Positions 5,916 to 61,285 of a stretch of 64,000 nt of DNA are shown here, piece after piece. Under the pieces are notes generated by a model. That model was not told where the DNA came from. It was given only the letters and a program-made list of their open reading frames with translations, and did not search any database. The first letter of the stretch is position 1. Each line of letters opens with the position of its first letter. Location: NCBI GenBank assembly GCA_963576565.1, contig OY755045.1, forward strand, positions 1,735,477 through 1,799,476, written 5' to 3'. The stretch is from Aspidapion aeneum (Eukaryota; Arthropoda; Insecta; Coleoptera; Brentidae). Made by a program: the position numbers and the translations under genes.

Positions 5916-7179
5916 TGTAACAGGGGCCTGTGTGTGACAGTGGTACTGTCACCTCAAGTGGCCAAGGCTTAAATGTTGTAAGCTACCAACTTAGGCTACA
6001 ACTTATATAAATTATGAAAAGATTAAATGTTACTATATGTTATAAAATTTACACAATCTCGAAAGGGAATTTGACGGTTCTTGGAGGAAAAGTATGCTAT
6101 AAACGTTTTTCCCAAATGTATAACTAATGTAGGATAATCATACATACCTTTTCAATTTTCTTCTTGCAGCTTCACACTTTCACTTCTTATATTTATTAGT
6201 TGAATATCGACTTTTTACTACTATTAAACTTTTGTATTCAAATATTTACACTTCTTAAACTTTTAGGCTTTATAAACCTTTTATATATTTGTTGTAAATA
6301 TCAACATCTTAAACGTTGGTTGAATGAGTGAAACTATTCAATCAACTGTTTAGTTTACTTAATATTACTGTTTAGGTTTGGGATATGTTATTTATTAAAA
6401 ATGCCGATTTTAGGGCAACGAATGGTTTGTATTTTGTTGTTAAAAAAAACCATAAAACAGTTAAACACATTATTTCAAAACACTGGAACAGTAATAATTA
6501 ATGACTTTAAAATCAATAAACTCCAAAAGAAAAGACTAAAATAATTATGAATAATAAAGATAATAGCTTATACAAAGTTAAAATAATTGATAAATTTCCC
6601 CAGCTGAAATAAAACCCCCCTTAAGAAGTGTGAATGAAAGCGTAACGTACCAAGCAAAGGCAAACTAAAGAGTAAACTCCCTGACGACTTTCGAAAGTTT
6701 CCCGTCTCAGTTAAAGCGACCCTGCACTTGAAGGGACAAATATCTTGGCGTTGATTGGCTAGAATTCTACTCCCTTTCGCCTTGGCGAGAAAGAGATAGA
6801 CTGCGCTTTAAGCGCTCCACTAAGAGAGAAAATAGCAATGCAAGCCAGACTTAAAAACCCGTTAGAAAGTAAAATTACACCGTGTGTTTGTTTTAATTGA
6901 AAATAGTTTAGCTAATTTGTTTCCAGTTACAAAATATGAATTATTTTGATGTTAGTGGCTCAAAGGACATATTAGCCGAATACAACTTTTATTAAAATAC
7001 AGCGAACCTGAAAATATGCCTAAAAACAAGTCGCCGAGTTGCCATAAATTTTACTTAATCTTAACCTAGTCTTGCATATAATTAATGCTTGTTGATGTCA
7101 AAACAATATTTAATTAAAAATCTTTAAAAACTTATAAATGGCAAAAATACCATTTATGCTCAAATCCCGTTTTGTTACA
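5916..7179 (+). mobile_element. solo-LTR-like element, copy 1 (TGTAACA...TGTTACA)
   Basis: A 1264-bp unit starting TGTAACAGGGGCC and ending CCCGTTTTGTTACA, flanked by TTAT on both sides (5912-5915 and 7180-7183). A second copy at 58819-60092 has the same ends with a different 4-bp flank, TACC, so both ends and a 4-bp duplication are firmly defined. No coding frame is present. A 7-bp terminal inverted TG...CA repeat with a 4-bp duplication fits a solo LTR of a Ty3/gypsy or BEL-type element; a non-autonomous Ginger-like DNA transposon would look similar. The GTGACAGTGGTACTGTCAC hairpin lies close to the 5' end. Confidence 0.8.
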
Positions 7180-14584: not shown

Positions 14585-15769
14585 ATCTGAGGGCACGGCA
14601 GTGCCTCGCCAAGTTCGCGCGCCGTAACCATCTTTTCTGGAAACATTTTAGCCGATATTTGATCTGAGGGCACGGTAGTGCCTCGCCAAGTTCGCGCGCC
14701 GTAACCATCTTTTCTGGAAACAATCGTAGATCTCCATGGAGTTAACAACCCCTCCAAGTTTCATGGAATTCCATAAAGTAGTAAAGTAGTTACGAAATTT
14801 CAAAAAACGTCGAAATTGCCACTCACTCACTGACTCACTCATGTATAGATCATCAATATTCTACTGTACTTCCAGACATGCTACAAAGCTGAAATTTGGC
14901 AGACTGATAGAAATTATGACCAAACCCCTGGGAAAAATCAAAAAACCCCAAACTTTTAATTTATTCCCCTCCCCTATACATTTAAGTTATGTTAAAGTAG
15001 CATTGCCTACTTCCAGACATGCTAGAGAGCTGAGCTTTGGAAGACCGATGGTAACTATGATAAAGTTATAGAAAAAAATTAAAACACCTCAAAATTCTTA
15101 CTTAGTAACTTACTTCCTTTCCCTTTAAATGTAAAGTTATGTAAAAGTAACACTGCCCATGCACTTCCAGAAACGCTAGAGAGATGAAAAGACTGAAAGA
15201 CAATATGATAAAACTATATGAAAAAATTTAAAAACACCAACATTTTAATTTACTTCCATCTCCTATAAATGTAAATTTATATAAAACTAACATTGCACAC
15301 TTCCAGAAACGCTAGAGAGCTAAGCATAGGAATGCTGATAGAGATTATGATAAAACCATGGAAAAAATGTAAAAAGTCCAATATTTTCATTTACTCTCCT
15401 CCCCTATACATGTAATTTTACTACTTTAAAAATTAAGTATTATCCAATTCCTTTAAAAAAGAAGTGAAATCATAACAAAAATATTTCATGTAAAAAAAGG
15501 CCAAGTACGCGAAAATGGCATTCCGTAAAAAGAATTGAGATAAAAGTAAAGCCAAGTTCTCCAATACAAATTTCAAAATGAAAGGTTCTTGCTAGTTTGG
15601 AAATATTTTTCTAAACTTGGCTATTACTGTAATAGCAAAGTTTAAAAAAATATTTCCAAACTAGTAAGAACCTTTCATTTTGAAATTTGTATTGGAGAAC
15701 TTGGCTTTACTTTTATCTCAATTCTTTTTACGGAATGCCATTTTCGCGTACTTGGCCTTTTTTTACATG
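14585..15769 (+). mobile_element. composite repeat: hairpin boxes, core repeats, terminal palindrome
   Basis: Two tandem copies (about 76-bp period) of a block with the GGCACGGCAGTGCC hairpin and GTTCGCGCGCCGTAACC start the element at 14586 and 14662. A CACT/GACT-rich stretch follows near 14820-14845. Then come four diverged tandem monomers of about 140 bp (14865-15420), each with CTTCCAGA.A(C/T)GCTA. The element ends in a 283-bp palindrome. Short inverted boxes, an SSR, core repeats and a terminal hairpin resemble the layout of Helentron-type non-autonomous elements; the class is inferred. A deleted copy lies at 5658-5905. Confidence 0.65.
15487..15769. repeat. 283-bp near-perfect palindrome
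   Basis: Arms of about 141 bp run from CATGTAAAAAAAGGCC at 15487 to its complement ending at 15769, meeting at GCTATTAC-T-GTAATAGC near 15628. I count about three mismatches between the arms. The right arm alone occurs at 5775-5905. Confidence 0.92.
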
Positions 15770-21327: not shown

Positions 21328-21790
21328 GTATACACAGTGGACCTACGCTTTTACACCTCTTCCGAAAGGTGGTCCTGCTACATGTTAGACTTGCATCTAC
21401 CTAACATCGTTATCGTCCCAGCAGAACTTGGTTATAGACGATAGACTTTTTTTTTTCAGCGCAATAGTCGCGGTCGTCATGAGTTGACTTTAAGAGATTT
21501 TTACTGGCGCCTTCCTGGTTCCAACTGTATAGCAGGCTCCTGGAGTATTAATCCTGGCTCCTTGGTGGTTGGCTCCTAGACTACACCTGTTTATATTCTC
21601 GATGTACAAGGTCAACTTATGTTTATGTGTGCATGTGTATCGCACACCATTTCGATGTCGACTGTACTACGTGATTTTTTTTTCTTTTTGCGTTGTTTGA
21701 GACGCGAACCTGGTATCTTCTGCATGTAAAGCCGACGACTATACCACTGGACTACTCTCTCGCACTAGACTACTTAACGTTCTTTGTGTT

Positions 21791-22122
21791 TTAGCCTCGA
21801 GGATGACGCGGAAGACGTCGAAACATTGATTGTTGGATTGCTAATTTGAAATAAAAGTCCACACAAGCTAAAAACAACCTTTTATTAATAATACTTACTA
21901 CATACAAGTGCTTCGAAGATATAACTTAAAGAACATGTTGGTCAAGAAAACAAATAGAAACTAGACCCCAAGTCGGCCAGTGGTTTCGGGTGCCATTCCT
22001 GACTATAGCTTTGCGGGGTCCTAATTATGGATATCTCAAATTTATTGGGGTAACAGCCAGGGTAAAATGTAAGACAACAAGATAAATTTTACACTAACGA
22101 TAACCTTAAAAAACGAAAAAAC
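21791..22122. other. spacer before the ribozyme array
   Basis: Contains GATGACG..CGTCGAAAC near 21800-21826, superficially like a hammerhead core but without a CTGANGA box or cleavage site. Otherwise unremarkable. Confidence 0.5.
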
Positions 22123-22373
22123 AAATATGTGCTGTAAGTCAAAAAGAATTAAAAAATAGGGAAAACCTATTTTTCAATCTACGAGTGAAACGACAGCGAA
22201 CCAAGGAAACCAAGTCCATGGCGGGACAAAAACGTCCACCGGTCTATAAGGAAGAAAGACATTCCGCCACAGTTCAACTAGACCATGCCATCAACGTCTC
22301 CACGGTATCGGTTTGAAACCGAAAACAATGAGTTAACAAAGCATAAAAGGCAACTTTATAGGGGTATATTCAA

Positions 22374-22431
22374 CCACGGACACCGGTGATTTGGAAAAAG
22401 GCATTTCCATCCTCAGCGTGGCTTGCGTGAC
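22374..22431 (-). ncRNA. hammerhead motif in inverted monomer, core broken
   Basis: Reverse-strand copy of the ribozyme. Stem I strand GCCACG, CTGAGGA, the stem II arms and the palindrome CACCGGTG followed by TC are kept, but the GAAAC core reads AAATC. Loss of the invariant G should abolish cleavage. Included because it shows what decay looks like beside the conserved copies. Confidence 0.75.
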
Positions 22432-22641
22432 ACAAAGTAGAACAAACTGACTACAAGATACAAGGTAAATCAAAAAGAATGAAAAAATAGGTCGTTTCAC
22501 TCGTAGAATGAAAAATAGGTTTTACTTCAAAAAGAATGAAAAAATAGGTCGTTTCACTCGTAGAATGAAAACTAGGTTTTACCTATTTTTTCATTCTTTT
22601 TGATTTACCTTGTATCTTGTAGTCGGTTTGTTCTACTTTGT

Positions 22642-22704
22642 GTCAGGCAAGCCACGCTGAGGATGAAAATGCCTTTTTCCGAAACACCGGTGTCCGTGGT
22701 TGAC
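22642..22704 (+). ncRNA. type I hammerhead ribozyme, monomer 1
   Basis: Core CTGAGGA (22657-22663, fits CUGANGA) and GAAA (22681-22684); stem III is the palindrome CACCGGTG (22685-22692); cleavage triplet GTC ends at 22694. Stem I pairs GCCACG (22651-22656) with CGTGGT (22695-22700), extended by GTCA (22642-22645) with TGAC (22701-22704) across a GGCAA bulge. Stem II pairs GAAAA with TTTTC around loop TGCC. Here 10.3 is A facing U, where other copies have a G-U wobble, so pairing is kept. The base of stem II is a U-C mismatch, which may slow cleavage. Confidence 0.82.
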
Positions 22705-22972
22705 TATACCCCTATAAAGTTGTCTTTTATGCTTTGTTAACTCATTGTTTTCGGTTTCAAACCGATACCGTGGAGACGGTGATGGCATGGTCTGGTTGAA
22801 CTGTGGCGGAATGTCTTTCTTCCTTATAGACCGGTGGACGTTTTCGTCCCGCCATGGACTTGGTTTCCTTGGTTCGCTGTCGTTTCACTCGTAGAATAAA
22901 AAATAGGTTTTACCTATTTTTTCATTATTTTTGATTTACCTTGTATCTTGTGGTCAATTTGTTCTACTTTGT

Positions 22973-23035
22973 GTCAGGCAAGCTACGCTGAGGATGGAAA
23001 TGCCTTTTTCCGAAACACCGGTGTCCGTGGTTGAC
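22973..23035 (+). ncRNA. type I hammerhead ribozyme, monomer 2
   Basis: Same architecture, exactly 331 bp downstream: CTGAGGA at 22988-22994, GAAA at 23012-23015, CACCGGTG then TC, predicted cleavage after 23025. Stem I is GCTACG with CGTGGT; the C-to-T change relative to monomer 1 gives a U-G wobble, so pairing is preserved. The GGCA bulge and TGCC loop are both kept. Confidence 0.82.
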
Positions 23036-23303
23036 TATACCCCTATAAAGTTGCCTTTTATGCTTTGTTAACTCATTGTTTTCGGTTTCAAATCGATACC
23101 TTGGAGACGGTGGTGGCATGGTCTGGTTGAACTGTGGCGGAATGTCTTTCTTCCTTATAGACCGGTGGACGTTTTTGTCCCGCTATGGACTTGTTTTCCT
23201 TGGTTCGCTGTCGTTTCACTCGTAGAATGAAAAACAGGTTTTACCTATTTTTTCATTCTTTTTGATTTACCTTGTATCTTGTAGTCAGTTTGTTCTACTT
23301 TTT

Positions 23304-23366
23304 GTCAGGCAAGCCACGCTGAGGATGGAAATGCCTTTTTCCGAAACACCGGTGTCCGTGATTGAC
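23304..23366 (+). ncRNA. type I hammerhead ribozyme, monomer 3
   Basis: CTGAGGA at 23319-23325, GAAA at 23343-23346, cleavage predicted after 23356. The core is intact. One stem I position is mispaired (CGTGAT against GCCACG), but the outer GTCA/TGAC helix remains. The monomer is cut off at 23400, shortly after the ribozyme, by the right-hand 13-bp flank. Confidence 0.78.
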
Positions 23367-23407
23367 TATACCCCTATAAAGTTGCCTTTTATGCTTTGTT
23401 AAATATG

Positions 23408-23490
23408 TGCTGTGTTTTAGCCGGAAATCGATCCTGGAACCTCTGGTTTTGTACACCAACGCTCTACCTATTGGGCCACCGAATCATATG
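23408..23490 (-). repeat. tRNA-like (SINE head) sequence
   Basis: Reverse strand: GGTGGCCCAATAGGTAGAGC (A-box-like), an anticodon-arm-like TGGT GTACAAA ACCA, then GGATCGATTTCC (B-box-like). The 3' side cannot pair with the acceptor arm, so this is a tRNA-derived relic and not a tRNA gene. The ribozyme array ends directly at its edge. Confidence 0.55.
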
Positions 23491-23609
23491 ATTATAAATT
23501 ATTAAAACTGCCAATCATGATTAGGGCAAAAAATTTATAAAAATGTATATAAATTTGTATAGAAATTTATAAAAATTTATATAAATTTTTATAGGTGTAG
23601 TAATTCAAT

Positions 23610-30739: not shown

Positions 30740-32215
30740 TTAGCAAAATGGCCAAATTTTTAGGGAATCCTATAAGACCAAAATGGCCAAACTTTGAAAA
30801 TTCATATTTTAAAAACTATATAGTTTATCAACAAAAGCACCGAGTTGCAATATGGTGGGGCCATACAGATGCGAAAAAACCACACCCTGAGTTAAGATTC
30901 GGAAAAACTTCATTTCGCGAATTTTGGGGTAGGGAATCCCATAAGAGCAAAATGGCCACAGTTTGAAAATTCATATTTCAAAAACTATACAGTTTATTAA
31001 CAAAAGCACCAAGTTGCAGTATGGTGGAACCTTAGAGATGCAAAAAAACCACACCCTGAGTTAAGATTCGGAAAAACTTCATTTCGCGAATTTTGGGGTA
31101 GGGAATCCCATAAGAGCAAAATGGCCACACTTTGAAAATTCATATTTCAAAAACTATACAGTTTATTAACAAAAGCACCGAGTTGCAGTATGGTGGGACC
31201 ATAGAGATGCAAAAAAACCACACCCTGAGTTAAGATTCGGGAAAACGTCATTTAGCGAATTTTAGGGTAGGGAATCCCATAAGACCAAAATGGCCAAACT
31301 TTGAAAATTCATATTTCAAAAACTATACAGTTTATCAACAAAAGCACCGAGTTGTAGTATGGTGGGGCTATAGAGATGCAAAAAAACCACACTCTGAGTT
31401 AAGATTCAGAAAAACGTCATTTAGCGAATTTTAGGGTAGGGAATGCCATGAGACCAAAATGGCCAAACTTTGAAAATTCATGTTTCAAAAACTATACAGT
31501 TTATCAACAAAAGCACCGAGTTGCAATATGGTGGAGCCATAGAGATGCGAAAAACCCACACCTTGAGTTAAGATTGAAAAAAACGTCATTTAGCGATTTT
31601 TAGGGTAGGGAATCCCATAAGACCCAAATGGCCAAACTTGAAAAATTCATATTTCAAAAACTATACAGTTTATCAACAAAAGCACCGAGTTTCAGTATGG
31701 TGGGGCCATAAAGATGCAAAAAAACCCCACCCTGAGTTAAGATTCGGAAAAACGTCATTTAGCAAATTTTAGGGTAGGGAATCCCATAAGACCAAAATGG
31801 CCAAACTTTGAAAATTCATATTTCAAAAACTATACAGTTTATCAACAAAAGTACCAAGTTTCAGTATGGTGCGGCCATAAAGATGCAAAAAACCACACCC
31901 TGAGTTAAGATTCGAAAAAAACGTCATTTAGTGAATTTTAGGGTAGGGAATCCTATAAGACCAAAATGACCAAACTTTGAAAATTCATATTTCAAAAACT
32001 ATACAGTTTATCAACAGAAGCACCGAGTTTCAGTATGGTGGGGCCATAGAGATGCAAAAAAACCACACCTTGAGTTAAGATTCAAAAAAACGTCATTTAG
32101 CGAATCTTAGGGTAGGGAATCCCATAAGACCAATATGGAAATGGAATATGGAAAATTCATATTTCAAAAACTATACAGTTTATCAACAAAACCACCTAGT
32201 TGCAATACGGTGGGC
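30740..32215 (+). repeat. 169-bp tandem repeat array, ~9 copies
   Basis: GGGAATCC(C/T)ATAAGA recurs at about 30763, 30932, 31101, 31270, 31439, 31608, 31777, 31947 and 32116, a period of 168-170 bp. Each unit also has AAACTATACAGTTTATCAAC and CCACACCCTGAGTTAAGATT. Units are well conserved. Frames within it do not stay open across monomers. Confidence 0.95.
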
Positions 32216-32825
32216 CCAAGCGCGGGTTTAAGGGCGTTTACGTGGTAATTACCCACCCATCCCTAGAGAAAAAAAAAATCACAAATGTTTTTTTGTTGAC
32301 AATTACACCCCTCCAGATTTATTCCCAGATCCGCGCTTTATATCCTGTATTTTTTTAACAAAGCAAATTTTTGCAAGTGGGTTACTTTTTAACCATTTAG
32401 GCATTCCCCTTCGAGAGTTAACTTTTTTAAAGATTTGTGTTTCGAAATTTTACAACGTTGTAAAGACATTAAAGACAAGCGGGGGTTTGAGGGGGGTACC
32501 GTGGTAATTATCCCCCTCCTAGGAAAAAATATATGAACTTTTAGTTAAGAAATATCGGGCTAAGCGCATAATTACCCCCTCCCCCTCTAGAAAAATAAAT
32601 AAATACATAAATAGTGTTTCCGTCTACCAGTACCCCCCCAGCCCTTTAAAACAAGTTTTTACTCGCCCCACATTTTTATTAATATAAGGGTTCGTTTACT
32701 CTTCAAAGAGGGTGCGTGTATAAAAAATTTCAAAAAAATCAAACAGTGTCCCCAATACAAACAAAATCGACGTGTTCAAGAAAAAAACACTCTGTATAGT
32801 AGTTTCATAATAGTTATTTAAACAA
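32216..32825. other. spacer with diverged GTGGTAATTA repeats
   Basis: A weak direct repeat (GGGTTTNAGGG...CGTGGTAATTA) at about 32224 and 32482, with C-rich partners, suggests two or three decayed ~250-bp units. No gene. Confidence 0.5.
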
Positions 32826-33894: not shown

Positions 33895-34706
33895 CTATCT
33901 ATTTTATTTAGCCTTCGTCAATCCATCTTTGGCCAAGTTCTCCAGTTTACAATACATTTGTTCCATCAATCGTCTTTCTGTCGGATAATATGACCGGCAA
34001 ATTTCCTTTTTAATTTTGCTACTTCTGCTCTGACATCCCTTACTTTTGTTTTATTTCTTATCAATTCATTCTTTTTTCTACCTGTTAGCTTTACATGTAA
34101 CATTGTCTTTCCATTGATCTTTGGGCTTTTCTTGCCTTATCCATGTTTGATTTTGTAAGTGTTCAGGTCTGGGATTCATAGGTAAGTACAGGAAGGATAC
34201 ATTGGTTATACACTTCCGTTTTGAGGTACTGAGGATATTTTTTATTTCTTAATATGTTGCTTAATTTACCGAATGCTGCCCAGGCCAATCTTACTCGTCT
34301 CTTGATTTCAGCTGTTTGCTTTTCTTTTTTCAGTTTAATAATTTGTCCCAGGTCCTATATATTCCTCTTCTTGTTCTATTTTCTTTTGATTGATTGATAT
34401 TATCAGCATATCTTGGTGGTTCAGAATTATCCGTTTACTTTGATGCCTATTTCTTCCCAATCTAAGCTTTTAAAAACATCTTCTAGGGCCTGGTTAAATA
34501 ATTTAGGGAATATTGTGTCACGCTGACACCTCTTCTTATGCGGATTGGCTTGGTTCCTCTGTGGATTTTGATTAATGTTGTTGCTTCACTATATATATTG
34601 TCTATTAAGTCTGTATATCTGTGATCTATTCGGCTATTAATTAAAGATCTTTCACTGCCCAGTGCTCAATGCTATCGAAAGCTTTTTCGAAGTCTATAAA
34701 CGCAAT
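33895..34706 (-). pseudogene. RTE-like (BovB-type) RT remnant (family C)
   Basis: Minus strand: AFIDFEKAFDSIEHWAVKDL, then IRIRRGVSVTQYSLNYL (degraded RQGDTISPKLF), EEIGIKVN, and later QRWIDEG with a stop near 33904. The middle carries AAFGKLSNILRNKKYPQYL-type sequence. It spans the palm to the C-terminus, with the YADD region damaged. The 3' end is AT-rich (AAATAAAATAG). It truncates the THAP frame to its right. Confidence 0.85.
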
Positions 34707-34719
34707 ATATATTTATATA

Positions 34720-35154
34720 TATTTCCATACCCTCCCTTTCTTCAATTTTTTTTCGCCTGTTGTCAGGATTTTCTCTTACTGAAGGTTTGGGGTTTGACAT
34801 ATACTCGGGTTGAGATTCAAATAGCCAAGGTATTGCCCCATTGTTTAACTTAGGGAATGTTAGTGGCACCTCCTTTTGTACTCCCTCTTTATCCCTAATT
34901 ATCTCGGTTCTAACAACGTCACTTATGTCAAAATGTTTCCAACAAACCACTGAAGATGCAGTCACAACATAATCTTCTTTGTGTATGGCCTGAAGCCAAG
35001 CATTTTTTAGGTCATTTTCTTTGCTAAAGGTTGTTTTGTGACCCTCTTCATTAATCATAGATACATGGTTACTTTTGCAACCCAACACTTTCGCGGCATG
35101 TTTAAAATTTAAAAAGAAAAAATAGACCAAAAATTCCAAACAAAAACAAACCAA
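34720..35154 (-). pseudogene. THAP-domain protein fragment
   Basis: Open frame with the THAP layout: GCKSNHVS, TTFSKENDLKNAWLQAIH (invariant Trp), TASSVVCWKHFD (the C-x2-H zinc ligand pair) and LNNGAIPWLF (AVPtLF-like box), about residues 26-115. The first zinc ligand of the usual pair near GC is not evident, and the frame runs into RTE sequence at its C-terminus. THAP domains bind DNA in P-element-type transposases and in cellular factors; which this came from is unclear. Not obviously joined to the Tigger relic upstream. Confidence 0.7.
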
Positions 35155-35691
35155 AGGTCTTTTTTACACAGCTTTTATTAAGTAGGTAATATAATTTTAA
35201 GTTCACCACACATCTCACTAAAACCAGAACAGTTGTTTTATTTGGTAACGCGATTTGAAATATACTAAAAGTTAAAAAAAAACATTATCTGCGCGGAAAC
35301 GGCCAGTAACTAGCGTGGTGGGCGACGCACGTGGACGAAAATGACTGGCCTCCACGCTGTGTTGCCGTTTCTTCTGGTTCGTGGCTCGTTAGTTTACGAA
35401 GGCTGTGCCGGTCGTCGTTATAATAGGACTTACTTATTTTAAATAAAAGCTCCTCCCTATTACAACTTTCTTATTATTTACCCTAAAAGTACATAAAAAT
35501 TCGGATAAAATCATCATATTCAATATAAAAAAGTAAACCTACTGAAACAAGTAAGACGTACCCAAATATTATGCACATAGGTATTAATATCTGCAATAAC
35601 TAAATATACATACATTTTACTTAATCAAATAATCTGTCATTTTTGCTTGTTTTTTACAACGTGAGTTGAAATAAATCGATTCGATTTTTTT

Positions 35692-39775: not shown

Positions 39776-39884
39776 ACGTAACGCGTTGCGTTACACTCAA
39801 TAAAGTTTTGATTGAACATGCGTTAAGAAGGGGGAGGGGGATTCGGATCGGTTCGGTTCTTCTTTTCTCTGTCATAATAACACT

Positions 39885-41205
39885 CCTAGAGTTGTGAACA
39901 ATCACCTAACCAAGTACTTGGAAAAGTACAAACTTATCAACGACAAGCAATACGGATTTCGAAAATATAGGTCAACTGGCGATTTACTTACATACGTCAC
40001 TCATTTATGGCAAAAAGCGATTGAGTTACGGGGCGAAACAAGAACAATTGCCTTAGATATATCAAAAGCATTCGATAAAGTCTGGCATGAAAATCTGCTC
40101 AACAAGCTTAAAGCAATGGGATTGTCGCCGAAACTTTGCACTTGGTTTGAATGTTACCTTAAGGATAGATCCATTTATGTTGCACTGGATGGCCGGAACT
40201 CCAACTCTTACCAAATAAATGCTGGTGTGCCACAGGGAGCAATCCTTTCGCAACACTTTTTCTGATTTACATAAATGACCTCATAGATAAAACAGTAAAT
40301 CCACTTTATTGCTTTGCAGATGATGGCAATGTAGTCTCCTCAGTCATACCACCCACTCAGTGTCTATCCGCACGTGAATTCCATCATCTTAGACAAACTC
40401 AAATATCGCAGATAAATAACGACCTGCAGATAATAGAGGACTGGGGCAACAAAAACCTTGTACAGTTCAACGCGCAGAAAACCCAAGCAGCCCTGTTTTC
40501 AAAAAAGACCAGCACCGGTGAGCCAAACATCATGCTATCTGGAAGTGCTGTCACATTGCAGAGCCAGTTGAACATCTTAGGAGTCACTGCAGAGACCAAC
40601 ATGTCTTGGCACAGTCACGTGGCAGATATAGCTAAAAGGGCGTCTCAAAAGCTTGGGGTGCTATTTCGTACAAGACATCTGTATACACCAAGCCAACTGC
40701 TGACACTCTACAAAGCCCAGATTCGACCAACTATGGAGTACTGCTCACATATATGGAGTGCGGCACCCAAACATACCTTAATGCTTTTGAACACCGTGCA
40801 AAAACGAGCTATCAAGCTGATTAATGACCCCGCACTTACCCGTAGTTTGGATAGTCTCGAACATCGAAGAACTGTGGGCGATCTATCTCTCTTCTACAGG
40901 TATTATCACGGAAAATGCTCTGAAGAGTTGGCACGTATGATCCCCCCGGGAGTAGCACCTACTAGGCGAACACGTCAAACAGACGGTAACCATCAATTTA
41001 CTGTCAAAATAGAGGTACCAAGAACCTCATTATATCAGAATTCATATCTCTGGAGAACAGCATCGCTGTGGAATAGACAGTTTTCCCTGCAGGTTACAAC
41101 CTGAACCGTTTCAAAACCAACACACACCAACATTTCCGCGCACTGGCCGCTTCTCGAGCGTGATAGGGACCTCCTTGCGAGTGCGCTTAACCGTAAAAAA
41201 AAAAC
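39885..41205 (+). pseudogene. CR1/Jockey-like non-LTR RT, copy 2 (most complete)
   Basis: NNHLTKYLEKYKLINDKQ, YGFRKYRSTGDLLTYVT, TIALDISKAFDKVWHENLL (first catalytic Asp), INAGVPQGAIL, then a one-base deletion near 40252, FADDGNVVSS, NKNLVQFNAQKTQAALF, and an open C-terminal frame 40532-41104 ending LWNRQFSLQVTT and a stop. The 3' UTR ends GCGCTTAACCGTAAAAAAAAA. Apart from the frameshift it lacks only the endonuclease and the N-terminal part of RT. Comparison with 12565-13628 locates the damage in both. Confidence 0.92.
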
Positions 41206-46450: not shown

Positions 46451-48206
46451 ATGACTGTCTGTATCCCAACAAACAATTAAAGTTGTAACGACGAAACCCC
46501 AACTAGAAAGAATTTCTTAAAAGTAACCGCAACGTACTCCCGCTACGTCTCAGTATACCATACAGCGACGTTATAATTCCCTAAGTGGGGAACCAATTTC
46601 TGGTTATAACTACTTGGCCAAGTGTTTAAAGTCACTGTAGTAACAACTACACTACTACGTCGTAGCCAGGTATCTACTACGTCGTAGAGGCTGCTTTTTT
46701 CCGTAATGGCATAAAAGTTGCGATGTAGTTGCAAATAATATAATCGTTTCTTTTTGGTAGAATTGTTACACAATATGGTGGACACAACAGTAAACAGACT
46801 CGCTTAGTTTTTTGTTTGGTTATGGTTATAATATGAACTATGTTATGAAAAGTGTGAGAATTTACGAGCAGAGGATCAAAATTCGAGTGCGACGCAAAGT
46901 TTTTTGTGTAACATGCATTGTATATATTGCAAAAAACCGGTGCGCCCGTAAAATTGAGCCGTTTTCTGGTAGCTGATGGAATTTTTGTGTTGTGATTTTG
47001 GAGGTTATGTTTTCATAATCGACAGTTAACTCCAACAAATGGTGCTTAAGAAGAGCATTTTTGGTAAGCTTCAACTAATTTGTTTATAAAATAGTATGGC
47101 TCTTTAATATGAGCTCATAAAACGACAACAAAAATATTAAATTTTCTTTCTTACATAAAAACATGGCGTCCCAAACTATATTCCCTGATAGTCGAAAAGG
47201 TTACTTGAAAGTAGTTGCGGCTTTAAAGTTGATCCAAAAAGTTATTTTGTCTACATTGTTACATCAGATGTTACTATGATGACACAAACTTTTGTGGTAA
47301 AAATTAAAGTTATAATGTAGTTGTCGGATACACTTGTTTGGGACTCCAATGAAGCTTAACTTTCTAGTGGTAATTAAGTAGGATATAAAAGTCGGGGCGA
47401 CTACGAAATAACGACTAAAAAGAAAGTAAAACTTTAGCAACGTCCTATTGTGGTAGAGAAGACTATCAGAATCGACTATCAAGAAACAAACCTATGAAGT
47501 AGTTTAGAGGGTCGTTTTTACGAAACATCTACTATTTCCTGATACTAAATAGTAGTTAGAACTAAAAAGTAACAAATTTTGGTTGGGATCACCACATTTC
47601 TACTATAAGAAAGTAGCAAAGCCTTTAGAACATGTAGCCGCTACTATAAATGTTAGTTGGGATGTCTGTATGTCTGTATGTCTGTCTGTAACGACCAACC
47701 CGCATAACTCAAAAACCGCTTGTCCGATTTTAATGAAATTTGGTACCTAAGTTGGGTCTTGGGCCGTGATGGTCCCATTTAAAAATGAACAACATCCACC
47801 GAATGCAAGCCAAATAAAAGGGTGGGGGTAGATTCCAAAAATTAGAGTTTATGTGAAAATATGGCGTGTGTGATATCAAACGAAAGGTAATTAAGTCTGG
47901 AGTTAAAAAAAATTAATTTCAGTTTATTTTAAAAAAAAGAGTGGGGGTAGATGTCAAAAATTAGAGTTTAAGTGAAAATATGGCGTGTGTGATATCAAAC
48001 GAAAGGTAATTGAGTCTGGAGTTAAACAAAATACATTTTAGATTTTTTTAAACTGGTGGGGGGTAGATTAAAAAAAATTGAGTTTAAGTCAGAACATGGC
48101 TTGTATGGTATCAAACGAAAGGTAATTGAGTCTGGAGTTGAATAAAATATATTTCAGTTTTTGATTATATTAGCTCACACTATAACTATAGTACCTAGTG
48201 TGAGCT
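46278..48206. repeat. palindrome-bounded segment with SSR and core repeats
   Basis: Bounded by two similar palindromes: TAGCTCACACTACT / AGTAGTGTGAGCTA (46278-46311) and AGCTCACACTA / TAGTGTGAGCT (48172-48204). Between them are GTCT repeats (46411-46464 and 47664-47689), a GATTTTAATGAAATTTGGTA block and three tandem ~118-bp repeats (47819-48160). This layout resembles HINE/Helentron-type non-autonomous elements; that class is inferred. Confidence 0.55.
46465..47661 (-). mobile_element. 1.2-kb CCCAAC-ended DNA element, copy 3
   Basis: 1197 bp, in reverse orientation to copies 1 and 2. Starts CCCAACAAACAATTAAAG and ends AAATGTTAGTTGGG, flanked by AT (46463-46464 and 47662-47663) inside a GTCT/GTAT microsatellite. 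The AT flank shows that the duplication is two bases but not restricted to TA. Confidence 0.9.
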
Positions 48207-53349: not shown

Positions 53350-54905
53350 TCAAACGTACTACTACTACGTCAGTTCAGAACGTTTTTCCACGTTGTCCGA
53401 CGCCTATTCTTCAACTCCTCCGATCCTGAGAATCATCTTCTTTCAGGTTTTTTTGACTCATTGATCTTTGGATTGACTGTTGCCATTCTAGTTTAGGGCG
53501 CACTCTTTTTCTGCGCCCTATTGTTTGCCATTCTAGGATCTGCTTTGGTCATCTTTCGTCGTTCATCCGTTGTACAAGACCGTACCATATCAGTGGTCTT
53601 TTAATGATGTCATCCGTTATGCTTCCCATTTTTTCTATAAAATGGTTTAGATATTCTCATTGACCTTCTTATTGCATTTCGACACTTTCCATTTTTGTCT
53701 TGTATTTTTCTGGCAAGTCTCTATTCCATACAACAGCATGCTTTTTTAATTTTTACATTCGTTTTTATCGCTCTGCTCCATAAAATACTGTTAAGGCATC
53801 CAATAACCTTTTTCTGCTTATACTATTCTTTTCCAGTTCTTTACAGTTTGTTCCTGTCTTATCAAATGTGAGACACAAGTATACATACTCATTGCATGGA
53901 GATATTGTGTGTCCATCGTCTAGTTCTAACTCATTTCATTCATCTGCAATACATAAGTACTGGTCTTGTCTATGTTCACTGTTTATCCTCCACTTTTGGT
54001 ATTCTTCCATTAACTTTCTCATCATATACTCCATATCTTCGTTATCGTTAGTTATAGTAAATTAGTCGTTAGGTTGTATTTTCGTGCCATGTACTTTACG
54101 TTTCAGGTTTATAGAGCTGCTTCGATATATATTTTAAAAAGAGTTGGAGAGATGCAACATCCCCGTCTTAAGTCTTTCAATACCAGAAATTCTTTTGAAA
54201 GTCGACTTCCAATTTTAATTTTAGATTTTGCCCCTTTGTGTAGTTCTTTTGTCGCTTTCATGTATGTATGATTGATATTAGTTTGCTCTAACAATGTCCA
54301 TAATTTTTCAACTGGAACGGCATCATATGCTTTTTGTAGATCCACAAAGGTAACATAAGTGTCTATATTTTTGGCACTACTTTTCTCACTTACTTGTTTA
54401 AGACAAAAAATCATTACTACAAGATCTGCCTGCACGAAACTCACCTTGTTCTTCTTCTTGTTCATGAATATATTTTTCTATTAAATCTCTAAGAATCCTA
54501 CCATACAATCTACTTAAAGAACTGATTACTAAAATTCCTCTGTAATTGCTACAAGCTTGTTTCCTTTTTTACATATTGAGGATATGAATGCAATTTTTTA
54601 ATCATCAAGTAGTGGATGTCCGTTTATGCATTGATTGATAATTTAATCTGAGATTTTCCAGTAGTTTCTTTGATCTATATTTAAATATTTTAGCGTTTAT
54701 TCCCCCAAGTTTTTTCGGATTTAAGTTTTTTAATACTATTTATCATTTCTTTTTTAATTATTACTTCACCTCCTTCTACTTGTACTTTTACTTCTGTCCT
54801 CGGATATATTCGGGTCTCGTTTCCTGCAGTCCTTTGTAGTGTTTTGTCCATTGTTCTTGTTTGATGATAGTATACTTTTTCTTTTGTTGGGTTTGTTACC
54901 ATAGA
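53350..54905 (-). pseudogene. RTE-like RT remnant (family A, copy 3, minus)
   Basis: The longest family A span. Minus strand, in order: VEGGEVIIKKEMINSIKKL, INQCINGHPLLDD, RILRDLIEKYIHEQEEE, TFVDLQKAYDAVPVEKLW, KIKIGSRLSKEFLV, a decayed palm with the FADD region deleted, YVYLCLTFDKTGTNCKELEK, WYGLVQRMNDERWPK, RPKLEWQQSIQRSMSQKN and a 3' end of CGT and GTA triplets. The 118-codon open piece 54465-54109 covers the first catalytic Asp. Many stops elsewhere. Confidence 0.9.
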
Positions 54906-60741: not shown

Positions 60742-61285
60742 TTACAGTAGTGGTAGTGGTGGGGAGACCCCGATTTGTCCGTACATCATATATCAAACTG
60801 ATGCACATGCGTCTTAGGATGCAAGTTTTCTTTCTTTAAGAGGACTTAGTTTTACCTTATACGTCTTTGTCGAGGGCAGGGATCTTTATACTGCGTAGCA
60901 AGTATACACAATGAACCCACGCTTTTACACCCCTTCCGAAAGGTGGTCCTGCTACATGTTAGACTTGCATCTGTCTAACATCGCTATCGTCCCAGCAAAA
61001 CTTGGTTATAGACGATAGACTTCTTTCCGTTTCAGCGCAACAGTCGTGGTCGTCGTGAGTTAATTGTAGGAGATTTATGCTGGCGCCATCCTGGTACCGA
61101 CTATGTAGCACTTATAGCAGGCTCCTGGGTTAATATTCCTGGTTCCTCGGTTGGCTGCGTGTCGGCTTCTGGACTACACCTGCGTATATTGCATCCTTGT
61201 TCGAGACACGAGCCTGGTACCTTCGACATCTGAAGCCGACGACCATACCACGGCACCACTGCCGCTTAACGAGGCTTATAGCTAA
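60742..61285 (-). mobile_element. tRNA-related SINE, copy B (uninterrupted)
   Basis: Minus strand: head CAGTGGTGCCGTGGTATGG (A-box-like), CCAGGCTCGTGTCTCG (B-box-like), a body with CTTTCGGAAGGGGTG, then a 3' tail of ACC/ACT triplets (about 60742-60762). About 540 bp. Keeps a single GTATACAC at 60899-60906 where copy A is split, so it is the empty-site control for the 19909-21327 insertion. Confidence 0.72.

Follow-up and report, generated by a model that had tools for sequence, protein, structure and literature searches.

The locus described here occupies positions 22136-23400 of the window, by which we mean the whole 64-kb stretch of Aspidapion aeneum DNA that was analyzed. A sequence-only reading had described this range as a tandem array of 331-bp units with hammerhead ribozymes, and direct 331-bp repeats are indeed present: TRF on 22548-23402 returns a period of 331 with 2.6 copies and 95% matches. 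What the description lacked is an inverted fourth copy (22134-22492), which meets the direct units head-to-head, and a flanking 13-bp repeat in the manner of a target-site duplication (TSD); the range that had been marked is exactly the stretch between the two 13-bp direct repeats (Table 1). The inverted copy and the flanking repeat together indicate one insertion rather than a plain satellite array. The 13-mer AAATATGTGCTGT occurs exactly twice in the 64-kb window when both strands are searched, both times on the + strand, and in 2000 random placements, with slides of 5 bp, the longest perfect direct repeat obtained by chance was 10 bp.

Table 1. Coordinates of the insertion, its parts, and its hammerhead domains
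Feature	Position	Strand	Remarks
Whole insertion	22136..23400	.	1265 bp between the two TSD copies
TSD, left copy	22123..22135	.	13 bp, AAATATGTGCTGT; last two bases also fit the unit
TSD, right copy	23401..23413	.	13 bp, AAATATGTGCTGT; first two bases, AA, also fit the unit
Inverted arm	22134..22492	-	359 nt; unit positions 218-331, then 1-244
Head-to-head joint region	22470..22582	.	holds a 57-bp tandem duplication
Direct array	22548..23402	+	855 nt = 2.6 units; unit positions 185-331, 1-331, 1-331, 1-46
Complete 331-nt unit	22695..23025	+	between two predicted cut sites
Second complete 331-nt unit	23026..23356	+	between two predicted cut sites
Hammerhead, inverted arm	22369..22431	-	core GAAA changed to AAAT; presumably inactive
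Hammerhead copy 1	22642..22704	+	predicted cut after 22694; one stem II pair broken
Hammerhead copy 2	22973..23035	+	predicted cut after 23025; all model pairs possible
Hammerhead copy 3	23304..23366	+	predicted cut after 23356; one stem I mismatch

The outer ends of the element lie at unit positions 46 (right) and 242-244 (left), counted from the predicted cut. Neither coincides with a cut site; both are 3' ends of the unit, ~196 nt apart on it, and each shares a 2-nt microhomology with the target (AA at the right; AC at the left, GT on the + strand). At the joint, where the inverted arm begins with unit position 218 and the direct array with position 185, the two arms share a GT next to a hairpin of the unit itself, formed by AGAATGAAAAATAGGT opposite ACCTATTTTTTCATTCT. 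The tandem duplication found there comprises 22470-22526 and 22527-22583, which differ at 2 of 57 positions. From the orientation of the arms and the joint, it follows that each arm abuts target DNA at its 3' end and the other arm at its 5' end. Long inverted arms and a TSD would also be expected of a DNA foldback or MITE-like transposon carrying a hammerhead-like motif by chance, but the termini are not mutual inverted repeats (9/30 positions match) and lie at different unit positions, so that we regard this origin as extremely improbable.

Both complete units have a GC content of 42.3%. The longest stop-to-stop frame overlapping the element is 83 aa, and within the element no RT or GIY-YIG gene was found. 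A pattern search of the 64-kb window found no other copy of the unit, which is therefore represented by one locus; the window also holds no convincing second copy of the target as an empty site, the joined flanks giving two weak matches (E 1.6 and 4.6). Searches with exact patterns (viral contigs, genome contigs) and with blastn (phages, plasmids) returned no relatives, and neither did a chance antisense frame used as a protein probe. This says little, because the DNA collections searched were not of animal genomes. A sigma-70/terminator scan, which is not meaningful for animal DNA, found nothing.

Several other features lie in the window. Directly at the right end of the insertion is a tRNA-like sequence (23413-23485, - strand; Rfam 31 bits, gathering 29) that is perhaps a SINE head; ARAGORN (bacterial code) found no tRNA in the window. 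About 0.3 kb to the left of the insertion, a pattern match at 21799-21824 (+), GAGGATGACG...CGTCGAAAC, has the look of a decayed, minimal hammerhead of the Penelope type. Two copies of a further sequence, tRNA-like by eye, are found at 21693-21756 and 61197-61260 (81% over 64 bp). Tandem arrays are present at 30761-32218 (169 bp, 8.6 copies, 91% matches), 47812-48162 (119 bp, 3.0 copies), and 15106-15420 (141 bp, 2.2 copies). An open frame at 34672-35163 (-) has a THAP domain (E 3.5e-07) and possibly derives from a transposon. LINE-like RVT_1 frames lie at 39816-41104 (+) and 54109-54477 (-), the piece 40169-41104 being below the Pfam cut-off. This LINE reverse transcriptase frame (40169-41104) gave 300 protein matches, the best of which is 94% identical; among the matches listed (120 of 300), the named ones are mostly from the beetles Callosobruchus, Acanthoscelides, Gonioctena, and Phaedon, alongside two Pieris (butterfly) sequences and one with the label Streptococcus, which suggests a beetle host on the evidence of a transposon only.

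Hammerhead cores and their predicted folds

The arrangement CTGAGGA + stem II + GAAA + CACCGGTG + TC occurs three times on the + strand, with cores starting at 22657, 22988, and 23319. As had been claimed, these direct cores are spaced by exactly 331 bp, their GTC ends falling at 22694, 23025, and 23356. A fourth hammerhead lies on the - strand, with its GTC end at 22379. The conserved core CUGANGA...GAAA...UH is intact in 3 of the 4 copies; the inverted copy combines two broken pairs with a mutated core and, having AAAT for GAAA, is presumably inactive. The complementary stem I strands GCCACG and CGTGGT of the earlier description are both intact in copy 1, where a G>A change has occurred in stem II, while the other direct copies depart from it: copy 2 has GCTACG, giving a G.U pair, and copy 3 has CGTGAT, giving a C.A mismatch. 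The U-C mismatch that the earlier description noted at the foot of stem II recurs in all four copies.

A full type I descriptor, requiring the core, at least 4 stem II pairs with slack at the base, 2 stem III pairs, and 5 contiguous stem I pairs, yields 2 matches in the real window versus 1 in 400 random order-1 Markov windows, with both strands searched. The third + copy escapes this descriptor because its stem I has only 4 contiguous pairs. A looser hammerhead pattern also picks out two copies of CTGACGACTTTCGAAAGTTTCCCGTC at 6681 and 59593 (+), which form part of a repeat; these have 5 nt between CTGANGA and GAAA and were rejected as hammerheads. The covariance check that the sequence-only reading had put forward did not come out in its favor: the Rfam hammerhead models gave no match at the gathering threshold in the whole window and none up to E=10 in 22000-23600, in a search run without a positive control. 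We do not take this negative as decisive because, in our own reading, stem III has next to no loop and stem II carries a mismatch at its base.

In the model of the domain, stem I is divided by a 5-nt internal loop (GGCAA): GUCA/UGAC pair on the outer side, and six pairs lie on the inner side, or seven if the loop is shorter. Stem II comprises five pairs after an unpaired U. Within one molecule, the palindrome ACACCGGUGU is predicted to close a CCGG loop with three pairs; between two molecules it is predicted to form ten, and as modeled it suits a double hammerhead. For single + domains, the best predicted folds have energies of -16.0, -21.0, and -18.4 kcal/mol versus -6.4, -11.0, and -6.3 kcal/mol for the hammerhead, meaning that an alternative fold is predicted to be favored by 9.6-12.1 kcal/mol in the three copies; the majority domain alone behaves similarly (-21.0 vs -13.3 kcal/mol, a difference of 7.7). 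When two copies of the 68-nt majority domain are folded together, the best predicted joint fold is exactly the double hammerhead, at -46.9 kcal/mol. A palindromic stem III suited to pairing between two units agrees with the earlier description; for the three pairs of actual copies, however, the double hammerhead is predicted to lie 5.0, 4.0, and 7.1 kcal/mol above the best joint fold. These best joint folds do retain the ten palindrome pairs. Copy 2 paired with itself is likewise predicted to prefer another fold over the double hammerhead, and in an 820-nt array transcript palindromes 1 and 3 are predicted to pair with a probability of 0.73-0.995, the other two combinations hardly at all. We dropped the dimerization energy gain as evidence, since an equal or larger gain was obtained for 299 of 300 shuffles of copy 2. 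When the units are folded as circles, one is unusually stable (z -3.8) and the other is not (z -1.1).

Four Watson-Crick pairs are possible between GGCA of loop 1 and UGCC of loop 2 in 3 of the 4 copies. This predicted contact resembles that of loop 1-loop 2 pseudoknot hammerheads, a device which ~40% of the hammerheads examined are predicted to use and of which types I, II, and III are all capable (PMC3088659); four such pairs arise by chance in 1.7% of random loops and in 12.6% of shuffles of these loops. At stem II, A9-U-G reads ATG in all three + copies and opens 25 codons to a stop, an open frame of a length common by chance. The distance from its A to the cut is 32 nt, and in the last copy the stop coincides with the right end of the element.

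These folds bear on whether the element still cuts itself. One of the four cores is broken and two other copies have stem mismatches, which counts against reading the element as a retrozyme and, together with the predicted misfolding, could instead mean that it is a retrozyme relic that no longer cuts here. A read-through transcript would then form a long hairpin from the 359-nt arms, which are 96% complementary (22134-22492 with 22581-22939) and 88 nt apart, and may feed small-RNA silencing. Since copy 2 can form all model pairs, we consider such a silent relic somewhat unlikely.

Variation among the copies and origin of the insertion

With 55 nt at the joint (22493-22547) excluded, 28 positions vary on the unit. 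Twenty of these are covered by four or five copies, and at all 20 the variant is a singleton, none being shared. The private changes per piece are 4/193, 7/331, 7/331, and 10/356. The lack of sharing alone is weak evidence, having a probability of 0.20 under a neutral coalescent of four lineages, and for this reason the evenness of the private changes was added to the test. No sharing with evenness at least as observed has a probability of 0.00064 under the neutral coalescent, whereas the same evenness has a probability of 0.084 under a star; the evenness threshold in both cases is the observed value, set after seeing it. All-singleton sites and even private changes suggest from the alignment that the copies were probably identical when they arose, at a single time. 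An RNA circle copied round more than once would yield this pattern; so could a fresh multimer that had not been cut, or template jumps from one monomer to another.

This pattern weighs on two further explanations. Hammerhead-bearing satellites are known in newts and cave crickets (PMC7229834, PMC2837043), and the units might accordingly be ordinary satellite DNA that carries a hammerhead and multiplied through unequal crossing over; the TSD, the inverted arm, the mere 2.6 direct units, and the absence of shared variants make this very improbable. We rejected the satellite and DNA-transposon readings on the TSD, the variant pattern, and the termini. Alternatively, a direct array may have inserted and acquired its inverted arm by a later rearrangement, in which case two-sided priming would not be needed. 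The 57-bp tandem duplication at the joint does show that local rearrangement happened, but the private change of the inverted arm equals that of the direct units, with no variant common to any, and the TSD stands at the outer ends of the whole element. A later rearrangement therefore seems to us quite unlikely.

The explanation that we consider probable is that 22136-23400 is a single non-autonomous animal retrozyme insertion. It has in its favor four unit copies that reach through a type I hammerhead, one of them inverted, as well as the 13-bp TSD and the star-like differences. Double hammerheads, formed as the ACACCGGUGU palindromes of two units pair, would do most of the cutting of multimeric transcripts after GUC, and a host ligase would circularize the resulting 331-nt monomers. 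An enzyme acting in trans, the reverse transcriptase of a Penelope-like or LINE element, would then copy the circle, primed by the two 3' ends of a break with a 13-nt stagger. One of the cDNAs would extend for 2.6 turns and the other for 1.1, after which they would be fused head-to-head next to the hairpin of the unit. The observed ends, microhomology, and head-to-head joint are what would remain after priming from both target strands, and the layout agrees with two-sided priming on an RNA circle, the boldest part of the explanation, for which one insertion is the evidence. We take the element to be real, a moderately decayed insertion of a known kind whose layout is informative.

Relation to retrozymes and Penelope elements

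Animal retrozymes are described as tandem units of ~170-400 nt with low GC, type I hammerheads, and, where present, long TSDs (PMC7229834). We compared the element with them in four respects, namely a conserved core, tandem units of ~150-450 bp, low GC, and a TSD longer than 4 bp when present, and found the core in 3 of 4 copies, a unit of 331 bp, 42.3% GC, and a TSD of 13 bp. The type I hammerhead, the 331-bp tandem units, the GC below 45%, the lack of a protein gene, and the long TSD are all shared with the animal non-LTR retrozymes described there (PMC7229834), and this anatomy supports the original identification of a type I, retrozyme-like 331-nt unit. The element differs from them in its inverted head-to-head copy and in the 8-nt palindrome CACCGGTG, which sits between A15.1 and U16.1. 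In axolotl hammerheads, either a very weak helix III is capped by a palindromic tetraloop or helix II has a U.U mismatch at its base, and dimers are the more active form; the U.U of axolotl HHR_Amex2 offers a parallel to the U-C found here at the foot of stem II, although the bases themselves differ (PMC7229834). The retrozyme repeats of Nematostella likewise combine tandem hammerheads with a long TSD, 15 bp there and 13 bp here, and their long TSDs have been called LINE-like; the element has an inverted copy, whereas none is mentioned in the available portion of that account (PMC4918200). We conclude that the element belongs to a kind already known in animals, and its mirrored layout hints at how such elements are copied back into DNA.

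A similar mirrored layout is described for Penelope-like elements. In Adineta vaga, Penelope copies show direct and inverted pseudo-LTRs, mostly head-to-head, with palindromes at the joint and short TSDs of 8-10 bp, an arrangement that its authors attribute to self-priming on an antisense template (PMC3846280). The same combination of head-to-head inverted repeat, joint palindrome, and short TSD is found in our element. In Anolis, both strands are cut and extended in vitro by the Penelope PAc protein, whose ORF begins at stem II of the hammerhead (PMC11167929); the unit likewise has an ATG there in all three + copies, opening a frame of 25 codons. For Penelope, there are reports of double hammerheads whose stem III loop is palindromic (PMC6466107), and Penelope hammerheads are reported to cleave as dimers (Lunse et al., cited in PMC6466107, PMC10085705). 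On these grounds, the unit could be a pseudo-LTR without its protein gene, moved by a host Penelope element, a proposal that overlaps with the retrozyme explanation and assigns the element to another family.

We consider assignment to Penelope unlikely on several counts. The Adineta elements carry an RT-endonuclease gene (PMC3846280), whereas the element has no RT or GIY-YIG gene (frames ≤83 aa). In PMC6155905, Penelope hammerheads are said to have neither helix III nor tertiary contacts, whereas stem I is extended in our copies. Reverse transcription starts at two adjacent sites in PAc (PMC11167929), while the 3' ends here, at 46 and 242-244, do not fall at one site or two adjacent ones but lie ~196 nt apart on the unit, and a 25-codon open frame is common by chance. 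A further result on PAc counts against the retrozyme explanation: ribozyme mutants were without effect on insertion in vitro, and none of the reads terminated at the cut site (PMC11167929), from which we gather that a circle is not required in PAc.

Returning to the retrozyme explanation, we also entertain a broader proposal, which we offer only tentatively and which may well prove wrong. The insertion would record retrozyme integration itself, in that both 3' ends of a break staggered by 13 nt primed reverse transcription of a circular RNA, and the two outward-pointing rolling cDNAs that resulted were fused head-to-head at the unit's hairpin. Taken with the AUG at stem II, this might suggest that retrozymes descend from Penelope pseudo-LTRs and still integrate in a Penelope-like way. 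By analogy with the PAc start codon, the U at the base of stem II may be kept because of the A-U-G there, and would then be a start-codon relic rather than a flaw. LINE twin priming gives a head-to-head topology like that of this insertion. Because twin priming yields the same topology and the long TSDs of Nematostella were called LINE-like, the helper may have been either a Penelope or a LINE element.

Among the titles and abstracts listed by a literature search, none described head-to-head retrozyme insertions. The return of retrozymes to DNA has so far been inferred in the literature, where Penelope elements are named as likely helpers (PMC7229834). The readable ends, joint, and variants of this insertion lead to a concrete prediction, in which a circle or a fresh multimer serves as the template and priming occurs from both strands, and this prediction can be tested by a survey of all copies in one genome.
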